The notes under the pieces are model-generated. The model was not told the origin of the DNA and ran no database searches. It was given only the letters and a program-made list of their open reading frames with translations. A program made the position numbers and the translations under genes. A stretch of DNA of 64,000 bases from Crambe crambe (lineage: Eukaryota > Porifera > Demospongiae > Poecilosclerida > Crambeidae), in the NCBI GenBank assembly GCA_963924555.1, contig OZ004582.1, positions 8,837,927 through 8,901,926 of the forward strand, read 5' to 3'. This document shows, piece after piece, positions 30,014 through 52,690 of this stretch; position 1 is the first letter of the stretch; each line of letters starts with the position of its first letter.

Positions 30014-30793
30014 GGTAGCTAAGTGCTAGAGCTGGTGTTGGCTAGATCACTACTGTCTATTAGCCATAGAAATCGAAATGAACTTGAGAAATTTTTTCTG
30101 CTTAGCTACCACGAAAAAAAAAGCCTCCCATGCTTTGGTTAGCTAGCTACCTACTCTTATGAATGAAAGGTACTTGAACTTCCTTACAGTATAATAACTA
30201 ACATAAGTATTGTCCAAAAAATAATTTAGCGTGCGAAAAATTCCACGTCGCGACCACGCCCATTAACCACACCCACCGCCCAACTCGCGTAATCGACCCT
30301 TTACCACATTCCCGTATTCCTATTTATGGTAAAGGGTCTATATAGTTGCCAGGCTTCTAGCTATGTTAATTCCATATGCGCATATATATATATATATATG
30401 CGCTTACGTATGTGAAATTTTTTCCCCAGGGTTAAAAATAACAGGAAATCGACTTCCTGCCTATCAGCAATCTATGCCACGCCTAGCGCATTCCAGAGTT
30501 TTCCTCCATGTAGTACTCACTAAAGACAGTGAAGCTAGCTGATTCTGATGCAGCGCGAACGGAGTTTCTACGTTGAACGGTTAGAGATCTACAAGCGCTT
30601 GTTGTCAGTTGTTTAGAATGCCATATACCAAGGATGCTTCAATTTTGAGAAGGGTTTGAAAGACAATGCTGGAAAGACCATGAAAAATGAGACAAGGTGA
30701 GCTGTCATCCAAGGTGCTACATTTTTTCCAGTAAGAGTTATGCGAGATTTAATATTAGACTATTATTGTATGGACATCCTTTCACTTCTAAAA
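30014..30793. other. Spacer between gene E and the RAG1-like gene
   Basis: 30014-30345 matches the upstream flank of the gene E pseudogene (55518-55840). 30372-30405 is an AT-rich palindrome (ATGCGC-(AT)n-GCGC). The rest, to the stop of the RAG1-like gene at 30794, shows no terminal inverted repeat that I can match to the other side of that gene. Confidence 0.65.
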
Positions 30794-33700
30794 TTATTCT
30801 TCTTTTTTCCTCCTTTTTACAGGAGGGAGCAGTGTTATGTTTGCTGGTGATATTCTGAGATGATGCTCCTTGACCACCGATAGCAGTCTATCAACCCTGT
30901 TGTGTATCATGTTGGCAAATGATCGTTCAATGGAATTGAAGCTGGCGTGAATGGATTCTGCTCCCTGCTCACCCATCATTCCGAATCCCAGGTGCCATTT
31001 TCTTAGCCAAGGTACCATGTGAGATTCCATGAGGTGCATTTTTGGAAGGACGGATGCTTGAGGAAAGGTGGAGCGATAAAACCCCATGAAGGCCTCTATG
31101 TTTTTTTCTAGAATTTGAAAGTAAACAACATTAATGACAATGTTGTCAGGTAATAGATATATAATACCTAGTTGATCTATCTGGTGATCTTCTAGGTAAT
31201 TGCCATTGTATATGTTATGGCAGGCTGAAAACTTGCTGAATGCCTCTAGGAATCGTTTGCTGATGACTGTGGCATCACTGACAAGGGTTGGACACACTTT
31301 GCGAGCAGTATCTACTATGGCCTCGCATAGGGTTTCAGTGTTGGAAGACTGTGATACAATCATTTGATTACATTATACTTCACTGTTGCTTTGTAAGTTA
31401 CCTTTGTGAACATGGTTGCCTATGAATGTTCCACCATAGTAGGCCTGGCGTTCTACTTTGAACGATTTCAAGGCAGCATCCAGGCCTTTCACGAAGGGCC
31501 CATCCTCTAAACTGAAACCCTTTTTGAGTTTCCCTTCCAAATCTTTGACTGTAGCATCCTATTACAGAGAATTGGTGAGCGCAGCTACACAGTTTTTTTA
31601 TAAATAAGTTTTGGTTATACCGTTGCTTGAAGAGCAAGTCTCTTGACTCTGGCCTCTTTCCTCACTCCCTCCAATACAGAACTTCCTTGTGGAAGTGTTA
31701 GGGCCAGTAGAGTGCTGATCTGCTCAAGTACAGTCGCTGCCTGCTCTTCCCTTTCCCGCTGCTCCTTCAATAGGGACAATTCATTCAAGGCACTGACGTA
31801 GCTCTCAAAGGAAGCACCACCCTGATGGTCAATGGAGCCTGTTTTCTGGGCAACTTCCAGATCAAGCTTGTTGCATGCTTCCTCCATAAGGGTATAGATG
31901 CGGAAGAAGATACCCAAGCTAATATGGAGCCCTGGAATGCACACCTAAGGTATGTTGTGTGTAAATTGTTATTGTGCAAAATCTATGTGGTAATGTACCT
32001 GATCCAATGGGATATCAAATAAAGAAGGGCATATGGCATTGTTGTATCTCTTAGCGTCGGAGTGAATGGCGCCGTTAGCCAAAAACTTTGAGTGATCAGC
32101 CTTCAGAGTCTCTAGTGTGCGTGGCTGCACAGAACCTGCTCGTCTGGAAGTTGGAGGCGTTTTCAGCTCAGTGGAAGTGATGGCGCAAAAGAGACAGCAG
32201 TGACGCCCTAAACCACCACAGATCTCTCAATATGGCAGTAAGTAGTGAATAGACCATACCTGAAGCTCCAGAGATCCCATACATTTTTCCCAGAAATTCA
32301 TAATCCCCAGAAAGGAAAACCCTCAGGGACTTTTGTCTGGTTAAGAAGGAGGTACTAGACTTAATTAATACCACACAAAATACAATCATGTACCTCCAAA
32401 TATGGGACTGGAGTTGACTAATTTGCTCCTGGTATCTTTGCAGAGTGATGTTGAGGTTTGATCTGCTATCTGGGGCTTCAAATGCTGTGAAGACGCAGGT
32501 GTTTTGGATGGAATTTGGGTGAGCTATATTGACTATCTGGAAGTTCATCTTGAAAGATGAACCTCCCTTGTCACCACCTAGCTTTACCCACAACTCAGTG
32601 TTTGGAATGCCTTCATTCCAAACCAACCTGCCAGCCCTTGGTATGAAAAATAGGCTTTTAATTACTAATTTCTAAGCAGTGCATTTATTATGCCTACTTG
32701 TCATTTTCCTCAATGAGTGTGATCACCTTCGTAACCAGATTAGGGACATAGCAGCAAGCCTTTGCCCTGATCTCCTCCCCCCCAGTTTTCTTCAGCGGGA
32801 AAGTTAGGGGCACTGATTCTGCTTCCAAATTTCCCCCTAGCAGTTTCCTGGCAACTTTCCTCTGTTTGCCTTCACTACTAAGTGAAATCCCCCACTGATG
32901 CAGCCACCTATGGGGATATCCCTATAAACTTTTGAATGGATGATCTAGGATATACGTATATTCTTGCCTCCTGATCACTCTTAGTTTGTTCCATGGCAGG
33001 TCCAGATCTGCCTTCATAGCTAAACCCTGCTCTGCTGGGATTTCAAGGGTAAATCCTGTATTCTGAAGGAGGTCCTGCCGCTCATCTTTGTTGAGGTGTT
33101 GAATTTCCTCCTTCAGCTGTGTAGAAGAATCATCAGCACTGACGAGGTCCCTCACACGGTCCATAGCCTTGTTTCGTCGTGCAATGGTCTTGCTGCTGGC
33201 ATCGCAAGTTGACACAACAGAGTGAGGAACTCTGACCAGAGTGAGTGGCTATATCATTTTAGAGATGATCATAATGTAGCTACAATAATAAGTGATTACC
33301 ATCACCTTTCCAGCTGTAGGCACACTGATGGTAGCTCCATCTTTACTCTCTGACAGCAGTCTCTTTATTACATTACTTGCTGTGGATGCTGGTGGCCCAG
33401 ATGGAGCTGGCTCTAGGTGCTCTTTGCACTTTGTATCCAAGTGCTTGGTGTGATCACCTGCTCTAACAACCTGGAAACAGTTGCTACAGGTGATGAGCAA
33501 GTTTTCAAGCACACTCAGGAGCACTTTTGAGGGTGAACGGACAGTAAGTGGGTGGACAGCATGGCAGCAGGGACAGCACTGAGAGGGTGAGATCTTTACC
33601 CACTTCTGGCAGCACTCTGAACATACCAAGTTGTCACAGGGAAGGAGTTCAATGGGTTTATGCAAGATGTCACAGCATATGGGACATTCAAGGTCTGTTT

Positions 33701-34207
33701 TAGTCAGGGGTGTCCCCAGTGGAAATACATGTACCCCTAGATAAAGACGGTTGAGGCCTGTTGGTGACTCAGCATTTGTTATAGCTCTGAGAGTAGTCTC
33801 TTTGCTATTGCTACTAGGTCGACCTCTCTTTCGGGATTTGGGAGGGCGACCTGCTCTGTGATGTGATGCAAAGTGTTCACAGATCTAAAATGTACATGTA
33901 TGTATAAATATTACTATTTTCTATTCTTTTTTCTTACTCTGCAGTGTGTTTCACTATGTGGCATCCAATTAAAGGGAGTGAAAGTGGTTGTGGGATGCTC
34001 TCTCTTCATCATAACAAAACATCTATTGCAGAATTTTGGGGGGTGAATGTGGGATTCATCATCTCGTACATCGAGCTCAAAAGACTTGTGGAGTTCCTGA
34101 AAGTGAGCTGAACAACTATATGTGACTCTTTGTTTCACAATAGACTCCCCACATATCCTGCAGTGGTTGAGGAGCTCTGTTTTATGGGAAGTTGGACCAT
34201 CCATCAT
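30794..34207 (-). CDS. RAG1L: RAG1-like recombinase/transposase protein, about 947 codons, 11 exons, one out-of-frame junction
   Basis: Exons: 34207-33938, 33884-33306, 33248-32968, 32907-32698, 32636-32394, 32336-32260, 32207-31999, 31944-31621, 31558-31402, 31348-31168, 31107-30794. Domain order follows RAG1: CRIC zinc region, FELDVRDDESHIHPPKFC and a final CEHF (aa 16-95); basic RGRP stretch; RING from aa 157 (CPIC, CDNLVC, CCPCC) where the usual His is Asn; SPSKVLLSVLENL; a zinc finger; core. Putative catalytic residues are Asp469 (LGGDKGG), Asp539 (LSGDYEFL) and Glu in GEQGAES. Zinc ligands are C558xxC561 and HLMESH. A Lys/Glu-rich coiled-coil-like insert lies in exon 8. All junctions agree in phase except exon 9 to 10, where the frame is off by one. 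The exon 3 donor is GC. No RAG2-like gene lies nearby. It may be a transposon copy or a domesticated gene. Confidence 0.85.
31108..31167 (-). other. 60-nt in-frame intron of the RAG1-like gene
   Basis: Donor CTAG|GTATTA and acceptor TTCTAG|AAAA. The length is a multiple of three and the intron has no stop, so retention would add 20 residues just before the FMGFYRSTFP segment. Removing it joins QL-EKNIEAF, which matches the RAG1 order better. Confidence 0.6.
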
Positions 34208-34751
34208 CAAAAGACAAAGTGTAGCTGCTGTGTGTACATTATTTTTACATAAAGATTATTGAAATTTTTGTTAGTTTTGATCGCCTAGTATCTCTTAAGG
34301 GAAAAAATGTAGCAACACATACTCTTGTGTTAGGACTTCCTCAATGCATTGACTACTAATTAGTGTTAACATACCGCACAGGAAAATTGAATTCTTTTGG
34401 TGACGCCTTCTTTACCCACAGGATATGAATACCGGTTGTGGCAGGACGCTTGAGGTTTGAATGTACAGCTGCTGCGCGTTGGTATAGCGTTTGTGATTTG
34501 CATGCGCAGATGGTTGCTAGGGGTTTATTATAGCCCATAGTACTACAATAAAGTGACAAACAGCTATCATAGCAACATTTGTGCATTATAGGACAGTTGC
34601 TATAGTACCAGGATTAAAAAAGAATTTAATTGTGAAACGCGTGGGCGGACATAACAATACCGTAATTACGTATGTTAAATTTAATTATCCGTAAATGTCT
34701 GGAATGAAACGGCTGTGATGCATGCACTGTATACCTGTTGTTTGTTTATAA
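34208..34751. other. Upstream region of the RAG1-like gene
   Basis: No further coding exon can be supported. An ORF at 34356-34586 on the - strand has no recognisable domain. This is the putative promoter side of the RAG1-like gene, which is transcribed away from SRCR gene G. Confidence 0.5.
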
Positions 34752-35591: not shown

Positions 35592-38091
35592 ATGGTCAAA
35601 ATAAAAAGCGTTGATGTCGTAATTGTTCTGGTACTCTCTGTCTACTCTTCTCTGGCTGCAGGTATAATTATAGCTATAGACTAGCTATAAATTAATAAAT
35701 CCGCAGCTAGCTGGCTAAAAAAGTAAGATCAAGTCTTGATGATTATATGTTGCAGCAGGATTAATAATAAGTATTATGTAGTGGCAGTCTGAAAGTCCAT
35801 TCTGCTTGGATCCATAGCTAATAATTGTGTCAGCTAATAATTGTGTCCATAGTGAAGATACTGTTGGGTTGAAGATTGACTGAGAGAAGAATACTGACAG
35901 GTCTGTAGCCAGAAGTTAAAAATAGAGGAGGCAATTTGAATAGATGTGGCAGCTATGTTGGGCATTTGCCTTCCTACTACTGTAGCTGTAGTGTTTAGTG
36001 ATTTATATGTATCAAGATTATGTATTGTGTATGTATCACTCATGTTATTGTTGTATCATTAACATGTGATAGACATGTGATCATGATGCACCATGGCATG
36101 TAGCTAGATGTAGCACAATTTGAAGTTTGAAAAGAATCTGTTCTAATCTAGTAGCATCCATAGAGTTGAAATACTACAACTGGTGAGGAGGATTCAACAA
36201 GATAGTTATAACAGTTGTTTCAAAGTGCTTCAATTTTGGTTATCAAGGTTGAAGCTATGCCACCCCCAATGTTTATGACCCATGCATGTTAATAGTTATG
36301 GCATGAGGCTCCTACCACCCAATCTTGCTCCTATATTCCATAATGTCTTCCTCCACCTATGCAGTATAGAGCACAGAACTATGTAAGTGTTCTCCTAGTG
36401 ATAATAGCTATAAGGTTTGAGAAGGCAATTATCTTACTTGCCTCATGCTGGCTAGAGTACTGGGCTCATAGAAGCTGTGCGTGCGTGCTTGCTTCTAATG
36501 CATGCCAGTAAAGATATGTGTGTGATATAATTAGTGTGTATTACATAAGTCTCTTTATGCTATAGGTTGCATATAGTGAAGGTTCATAGAACTAGTGAAA
36601 ACTGCTACTTGAATTCCCCCACTACCCCTTTACTGGATGGATAAAGAGCAAAGGGATAAGCTCATGCATCAGACATCTGATCATGATCTGATCATAGTTT
36701 TGGGAAAAAATTCTTTGGGAAAAAAAATTTGGGAAAAAATATTTGGGAAAAAAAATTTGGGAAAAAATATTTGGGAAAAAAAATTTGGGAAAAAAATGCA
36801 GGGTGATGTAGAGATGTATTAGCTTTGTTTGTTCAGATGGTGATTTGAGGCTGATTGGCTCCTTTTCCTCTTCAAGTGGTCGTCTGGAGATTCACTACAA
36901 TGGAATTTGGGGAACAGTGTGTGGTGATGATTTCAGCTCCACTGATGCTAGAGTTGCTTGCAGACAACTTGGTTATTCTACTTACAGTATATATGGAAGA
37001 GTTGGAACCCTTGGGTTAGGGATTAGTTTAATTTTACTTTTAATATAATGATTGAGGTCTCATGCATGTTTTATCATAATATGCAGCTATAGTCAAGGAA
37101 CGGGGAGAATTTGGTTGGATAATGTCAACTGCTATAGTTATAGCACTCGACTATCACAGTGCAGCCATAGTGGATGGGGAGTCCATGACTGTAGCCACTA
37201 TGAAGATATTGCCCTGCAATGTTCTTCATCCAGTGGAAGTGAGTTGGAACAGGATATCATACTAGGATATTAGGATAATTCACCATTAGTCCTAATTCCT
37301 CAGCATCCTCTGTTCAGTGAGGAAGTACTCTCTCTCACACACACACACATGGTGAAACCATGGACACACTTAGGATCCATCCTTTTGGAGGTATTATACG
37401 AAGGCACTTTTAGATTGTCCTTTGTTGAGAGGTTTGTCCTCCATATTGGAGGTTCCACTGATTGTAAGCCCCCTAAGTTAGTAGATACATTCCACATCAC
37501 TGAGCAAACTCTAGTTTTACTATGGACAAAGCCTCAAAGCTTCTGTATGTCCACAGTGGAGAGGCTCCAATACAGTATACGTACTTTCGGTGTATCAAAA
37601 TACTTTTATACTATGTAGCTACTGGGGACAATTACAATTCAAGTCCAAGGCATGCAGATGGAGCTTCCACTGGAGGAATACTTGTTGGAGGCATCTTCAT
37701 GATTATATTTTGCATTGTTATAGTATATGCTGCAGTCCGTAAGAGCGGAGGGTGTATTCCTAGAATACCTCCTCCCGTGACCCATTCAGTTTGTTCTAGA
37801 TCCTACAATTTGGCAGCCTTATCTCATCGGAGAACAACCGCATCAACCACTTCCCCATACAGCACCAAACCACAAGAGCCTCCAGCTACTTTTCCAGAAA
37901 AATCTGAGCTTCAAACAGCTCCACCTCCTTCATACAATGATGCTCACAAGTACCCCCCAGGGGATAAGAGCATACCAAATAGACCTGGACCTTGTCCAGC
38001 TGCCACCAACCTCTCTCCCCAGCCCCCCTGCTCTGATTATCCGAACCCAGCAGCTTGCCATGACTCTCCTCATAAAGAAACTACAGTTTAA
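35592..38091 (+). CDS. Gene G: single-SRCR-domain type I membrane protein, 290 aa
   Basis: Four exons: 35592-35661 (signal peptide [20 protein letters not shown], phase 1 donor), 36837-37014 and 37087-37238 (the two halves of one SRCR domain), 37619-38091 (membrane span and tail). The frame is intact (873 nt). Six cysteines (TVC, VAC, VNC, SQC, HDC, LQC) and the two-exon structure make it a group A SRCR domain; TVCGDD replaces the usual TVCDDG. TM segment: GGILVGGIFMIIFCIVIVYA. The cytoplasmic tail of about 115 aa is Pro-rich with PPSY, a WW-domain or Nedd4-type ligand, and many Ser/Thr. SRCR receptors in sponges have been linked to aggregation and innate recognition; a similar role here is inference. 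Confidence 0.85.
36702..36799. repeat. (TTTGGGAAAAAAA)n short tandem repeat
   Basis: About seven copies of a 13-15-bp TTTGGGAAAAAAA/TTTGGGAAAAAATA unit in intron 1 of gene G, ending about 40 bp before the SRCR exon. Confidence 0.93.

Positions 38092-38994: not shown

Positions 38995-52690
<13,696 letters not shown>

Follow-up and report, generated by a model that had tools for sequence, protein, structure and literature searches.

Does a single locus outside the bilaterians join the N-terminal zinc region of RAG1 to a RAG1-type catalytic core? The question was raised by the window, a 64,000-nucleotide stretch of DNA in which a minus-strand gene had been predicted to follow vertebrate RAG1 over its whole length. 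We found that this collinearity holds for the N-terminal third of the protein (RAG1 residues 102–379) and fails in the core, which is of the DUF1280/Chapaev type and belongs to elements with a 4-bp target site duplication (TSD). Almost certainly, the locus is a Chapaev-superfamily (CMC group) element in decay: a copy of a cut-and-paste transposon whose transposase pairs a Chapa zinc domain with a RING-like finger.

Gene model and N-terminal region

Eleven minus-strand exons, at window positions 34207–30794, make up the gene and give a 957-codon frame as modelled; the predicted coordinates and exon structure were thus borne out, with GT/GC-AG junctions and a frame that is open as modelled. Introns were 51–62 nt long, including one with a GC donor, and the sole exception was the intron between exons 9 and 10, which was modelled at 30 nt; the frame closes there only if such an intron is assumed. 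This odd intron is due to damage in exon 9 as modelled (31379–31558): compared with the nearest copy, on contig C1, the window lacks 8 bp near 31405, whereas the C1 frame runs on there. Because this loss is out of frame, the transposase gene of the window, which continues in exon 10 (31168–31348), is probably frameshifted. Scavenger receptor (SRCR) domains are encoded in plus-strand open frames at 36812–37048 and 49658–50200, roughly 2 and 15 kb from the element, respectively.

Exon 1 (33938–34207) encodes the Chapa zinc domain, which corresponds to the importin-binding-like region of RAG1 (Pfam RAG1_imp_bd, E = 1.6e-8, residues 39–116) and in which the profile match to RAG1 starts, from RAG1 residue 102. 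Exon 2 (33300–33884) encodes the end of the Chapa domain, a GRP/basic linker, the RING-like region, an SPxK helix, and a C2HC finger. RAG1_imp_bd exceeded its cut-off in all four proteins scanned (those of the window, C1, L012, and L017). A family profile built from three proteins (L009, L012, and L017) matched RAG1 residues 102–379 without interruption (E = 1.5e-21), the targets being the full-length chains 6oem and 9jpu, which are presumably from mouse, and the window protein alone matched RAG1 residues 155–375 (E = 2.3e-9). These sequence comparisons strongly support the view that the first ~240 residues are homologous to and collinear with RAG1 102–379, and the original prediction was therefore correct in placing the N-terminal zinc region, basic linker, RING-like region, SP-K helix, and zinc finger in RAG1 order. 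Among the best 60 PDB matches of the N-terminus, RAG1 ranked first and no Chapaev protein was listed. The AlphaFold model of exon 2 alone had a mean pLDDT of 38.

A resemblance of this kind might arise by chance if an unrelated RING protein lay beside an unrelated transposase fragment, and the RING fold is indeed common, with weak matches to many RING proteins. However, the match to RAG1 runs unbroken through Chapa, RING, and zinc finger, and sister families that are 42–43% identical at full length keep the same order of parts. Moreover, intron phases agree among all three families for the last eight introns, whereas the N-terminal part of L012 is a single exon and the N-terminal junctions of L017 were modelled differently. 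We consider the chance explanation vanishingly improbable.

The RING reading is based on alignment to RAG1 and other RING structures, not on Pfam, as Pfam scans of four proteins (window, C1, L012, and L017) yielded no RING match. Asn occupies the His position of the RING (33630–33632, exon 2) in the proteins of the window and C1, whereas RAG1 and two sister proteins have His; in addition, the last Cys pair is CxC in the sister families instead of CxxC. Given these changed ligands, the transposases may carry a RING that is modified or no longer active. Pfam DUF4674 showed a weak match over window residues 218–336 (approximately 33503–33110; E = 2.2e-6, 28.3 bits against a cut-off of 28.6), which reaches across the zinc finger into the first part of the core; it was weaker in the C1 protein and absent from L012 and L017.

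The catalytic core

The core starts in exon 3 (32968–33248, with the GC donor), where a match to Pfam DUF1280 begins at residue 307; the match extends through exon 4 (32698–32907) to residue 526 (E = 1.3e-16, 61.4 bits). The C1, L012, and L017 proteins scored 61.6, 54.2, and 48.0 bits, respectively, all above the curated cut-off of 25. DUF1280 has been described as comprising putative Chapaev transposases and was grouped with RAG1 in one clade of RNase H-like endonucleases (PMC3985635). The hallmarks given for Chapaev, namely a TSD of 3–4 bp, CAC/GTG termini, and the C(2)C, LH, and H(4)H motifs (PMC4079192), are all present here, and the D-D-E candidates and the three motifs were invariant in 3/3 aligned proteins.

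Catalytic residues were assigned by motif position. In the numbering of the C1 protein, the candidate first catalytic Asp is D471 in exon 5 (32394–32636, GGDKGG) and the candidate second is D541 in exon 6 (32260–32336, SGDYEFL), both invariant. Exon 7 (31999–32207) holds the C(2)C motif with invariant C560/C563, and exon 8 (31621–31944) the LH motif (PGLHI) with invariant L631/H632. Exon 11 (30794–31107) contributes H(4)H, the candidate catalytic Glu (GEQGAESIH), and the stop codon; H873, H878, E895, and E899 (C1 protein numbering) were invariant. This alignment covered L009, L012, and L017 of the 13 copies examined, with four residues ahead of the first Met trimmed from L012 and L017. The remainder were left out as near-copies of L012 (L013, L014, and L015), for the exon 9 deletion (the window copy), or as deleted, decayed, or truncated (L010, L011, L016, L018, L067, and L068). 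C(2)C and H(3-4)H are common to CACTA, Mirage, Chapaev, Transib, and RAG1 (PMC12730594), and therefore do not separate Chapaev by themselves; DUF1280 and TSD length do. The Chapaev assignment is based on DUF1280, the TSD, the termini, and the motifs.

Could the locus nevertheless be a true RAG1-like gene (TransibVDJ/RAG1L), with a RAG1 N-terminus and a Transib-type core, in a non-bilaterian? The N-terminal match speaks for this reading, as does the placement of RAG1 and DUF1280 in one clade (PMC3985635). The core also shows the RAG1 spacing D(18)C(2)C when compared by eye, as well as H(4)H followed by EQGAES, where RAG1 has SEGNES; this comparison used the RAG1 residues that we take to be catalytic. 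However, none of the four proteins (window, C1, L012, and L017) was hit by the RAG1 core model PF12940 at E ≤ 1, although the same model scored 1254 bits on mouse RAG1 as a positive control. Alignment of the core profile to RAG1 with hhalign had a probability of 0.1%, with a short alignment setting GAES over GNES at the Glu. In shuffle tests of the whole core against RAG1, the observed score was reached by 75/100 shuffles for L009 and 41/100 for L012, i.e., at chance, and by 1/100 for L017, the one core protein of three that scored at or above 99 of 100 shuffles. For the second-Asp region, the corresponding numbers were 12/300, 130/300, and 1/300 (L009, L012, and L017), and for the Glu region they were 79/300, 166/300, and 4/300. 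The signals of L017 and the like weakly point towards a distant kinship with RAG1. The predicted match to the "CLAI...HKMYRTVKAITG" (NBD-like) part of RAG1 was at chance, with 237, 184, and 89 of 300 shuffles scoring at least as high as the three family proteins.

The prediction of a RAG1-type catalytic core was consequently not sustained. Membership in RAG1/Transib proper was rejected on the absence of PF12940, the hhalign result, and the shuffle tests. Profile searches place the core outside the Transib/RAG1 clade, the outcome that was to refute the prediction, if that clade is understood as RAG1 with Transib. In a broader sense, Chapaev has been described as a separate, distant clade inside the Transib superfamily (PMC4411706); together with the grouping of DUF1280 and RAG1 (PMC3985635), this makes the core a distant cousin of the RAG1 core rather than an unrelated protein, and on sequence grounds such a cousin is at most what it would be. 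The genome itself, when searched with a RAG1 core protein, PF12940, and PF03089 (RAG2), in searches run without a positive control, gave no match.

Copies, ends, and target sites

The transposon copy occupies window positions 30404–34717 on the minus strand, limits that are set by the extent of similarity to the C1 copy; the outermost 38 bp are gone at the low-coordinate end. Over this span, the C1 copy (C1:195222-199581) differs by 28 mismatches in 4313 aligned bases (99.35% identical), and it keeps both ends and an open frame. One terminal inverted repeat (TIR) survives in the window, at 34700–34717, where it reads CACAGCCGTTTCATTCCA on the minus strand and occurs once. The C1 and C3:693k copies each carry the same sequence at either end, as a perfect 18-bp inverted repeat of the CAC...GTG type; the C3:693k copy is internally deleted, and its outer limits match those of the window copy within one base. 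In place of the lost left end, the window has an (AT)n-rich palindromic tract (30364–30403) that directly adjoins element sequence. A second family, represented on C6, C12, C17, and C21 by copies that are 98–99% alike, has CACGGGTGTTTTG at its ends, and the termini of a third family (C3:3.09 Mb) are a variant of this sequence. Ends start with CACAGCC in the window family (5/7) and with CACGGGT in the second; an RSS-like heptamer would be CACAGTG, and a CAC start is shared by all of the group.

We examined 13 copies for ends (the window copy, L009–L018, L067, and L068). Both TIRs were present in six (L009, L011, L012, L015, L017, and L067), and all six were flanked by an exact 4-bp TSD (CTAG, ACCT, GGGT, CCTC, GAGG, and CACA). 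Five of these copies were located by their TIRs alone. L067 was located by a script that demanded a TIR together with a 3-, 4-, or 5-bp TSD, and its TSD is thus not independent of the search. Applied to seven copies, the script returned paired ends in four (L009, L012, L017, and L067), in each case with 4 bp only; the TSD of L009 sits within a TAGC-rich tract. A single end was found in the window copy, L013, and L014, and no end in L010, L016, L018, or L068, of which L010 and L018 were probed with the end sequence of the window family alone. As the window copy has a single TIR and lacks a TSD, its class is taken partly from its 99%-identical sister. As a separate observation, L068 (C3:2.07 Mb) retains the N-terminal half and the first-Asp exon without stops, after which the core breaks off; the sequence beyond appears retroelement-like by eye.

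Transib and RAGL elements have a 5-bp TSD. Elements of the present group resemble Transib, ProtoRAG, and RAGL in being cut-and-paste elements with ends starting CAC, and differ from them in the 4-bp TSD (6/6) and in the absence of a detectable PF12940 core. RAGL elements encode RAG2L, whereas the 4.3-kb element found here is too small to accommodate a RAG2 partner. Taken with the behavior of the core, these features make a true RAG1-like gene a very improbable reading. The 4-bp TSD falls within the 3–4 bp of Chapaev (PMC4079192).

Domestication, by which a host gene derived from such a transposon would have been retained for a host function, is suggested by the lack of the left TIR in the window copy and by an excess of synonymous changes relative to C1. 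The coding comparison, which skips 12 codons at the end of exon 9, gave 9 synonymous changes over ~639 sites and 9 nonsynonymous changes over ~2197 sites (ratio 0.29, Fisher P = 0.009). However, a near-identical copy with both ends and a TSD exists elsewhere, the window copy carries the 8-bp out-of-frame loss, and near-identical copies likewise occur in another family of this genome. Such constraint is also already predicted for the source elements, and the substitution pattern would be that expected from recent descent from working elements. We therefore regard domestication as highly unlikely and retain the reading of a decaying Chapaev-type copy, which is probably immobile.

We envisage that the zinc and GRP regions of the transposase would serve to bind the 18-bp ends, that its RNase H-like DDE core would cut, and that insertion would occur at 4-bp staggered sites. 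By analogy with RAG1, the RING may be a ubiquitin ligase, with its zinc ligands altered here.

Across the 143-Mb genome, the first-Asp exon (exon 5) had 33 matches, two of which overlap; the RAG1 importin-binding model had 20 and DUF1280 had 24. Seventeen of the 33 matches (16 of 32 places) fell on contig C3 between 0.45 and 3.97 Mb, i.e., in ~4 Mb or 2.8% of the genome (P about 3e-18 or 5e-17 by a binomial test, with the limits of the stretch picked after seeing the data), and 14 of these 17 were 42–60% identical to the window. Of 150 reverse transcriptase matches scored, out of 801 candidates, only 3 fell in this stretch. It is possible that the cluster reflects local hopping or an old reservoir. 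On contig C8 (8.06–8.14 Mb), six copies of CACAGCCTTTTCATTCCT in one orientation, spaced 12.7–18.6 kb apart, suggest a tandem array of something unrelated.

Relation to known elements and significance

The closest described relatives are the two Chapaev subgroups in which Kapitonov and Koonin (2015) reported Chapa together with RING (PMC4411706). The present elements share with them the Chapa zinc domain, the RING, the DDE core, and CAC/GTG ends, and differ, as far as the published description allows comparison, in constituting new families in another genome and, in the window, in having Asn for His in the RING. The Chapa-RING-core architecture is thus already known in print. In the portions of that paper that concern these elements, Chapaev is identified in lancelet and sea anemone and the hosts of the RING subgroups are unnamed; Hydra and Nematostella are among the species in its tree, and a Chapa-RING architecture in a non-bilaterian is therefore probably in print as well. 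Pairs of RAG1L and RAG2L have also been described from three cnidarians, the Aurelia protein being reported without the RING dimerization domain (PMC7204232). The novelty first claimed for the locus, the joining of two RAG1-like halves in a non-bilaterian, is weakened by these publications.

Compared with vertebrate RAG1, the N-terminal region aligns throughout residues 102–379 and the core keeps the order D-C(2)C-H(4)H-E, whereas the core has no detectable profile similarity. The finger after the RING is C2HC instead of C2H2, and a GRP motif stands ahead of the RING, whereas RAG1 has GGRPR after it. Unlike RAG1, the present gene exists in many copies, some with TIRs, and its element has no RAG2 partner. 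The RAG1 N-terminal zinc region and RING do not occur in all Transib-type elements (PMC4411706), and portions of this N-terminus may also be present in RAGL proteins (PMC7204232). Aplysia N-RAG-TP likewise has RAG1 N-terminal-like sequence inside a transposon; by its published description (PMC8355894), it differs from the elements here in consisting wholly of such sequence.

Relatives were also sought elsewhere. None was confirmed in viral contigs or prokaryote genomes, each scanned with two peptide patterns, and phage records held no relative of the exon 1 protein. In a mainly open-access literature, no paper was found whose title or opening of the abstract concerns such elements in sponges.

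A striking resemblance to RAG1 in a raw genome is thereby explained by a known transposon superfamily. A sponge host, as supposed in the original prediction, would, if true, modestly extend the range of Chapa-RING Chapaev elements. In that case, it is conceivable, though we hold it doubtful, that a RAG1-type N-terminus and a RAG1-related DDE core were already joined before the divergence of sponges from other animals; if so, the RAG1 N-terminus would be ancestral and not a later addition, unless the elements were horizontally transferred. What the genome offers is a set of young Chapa-RING Chapaev elements, with an open transposase frame in three families, which could help to test by what route the N-terminus of RAG1 was assembled and whether a transposase RING is an active ubiquitin ligase.
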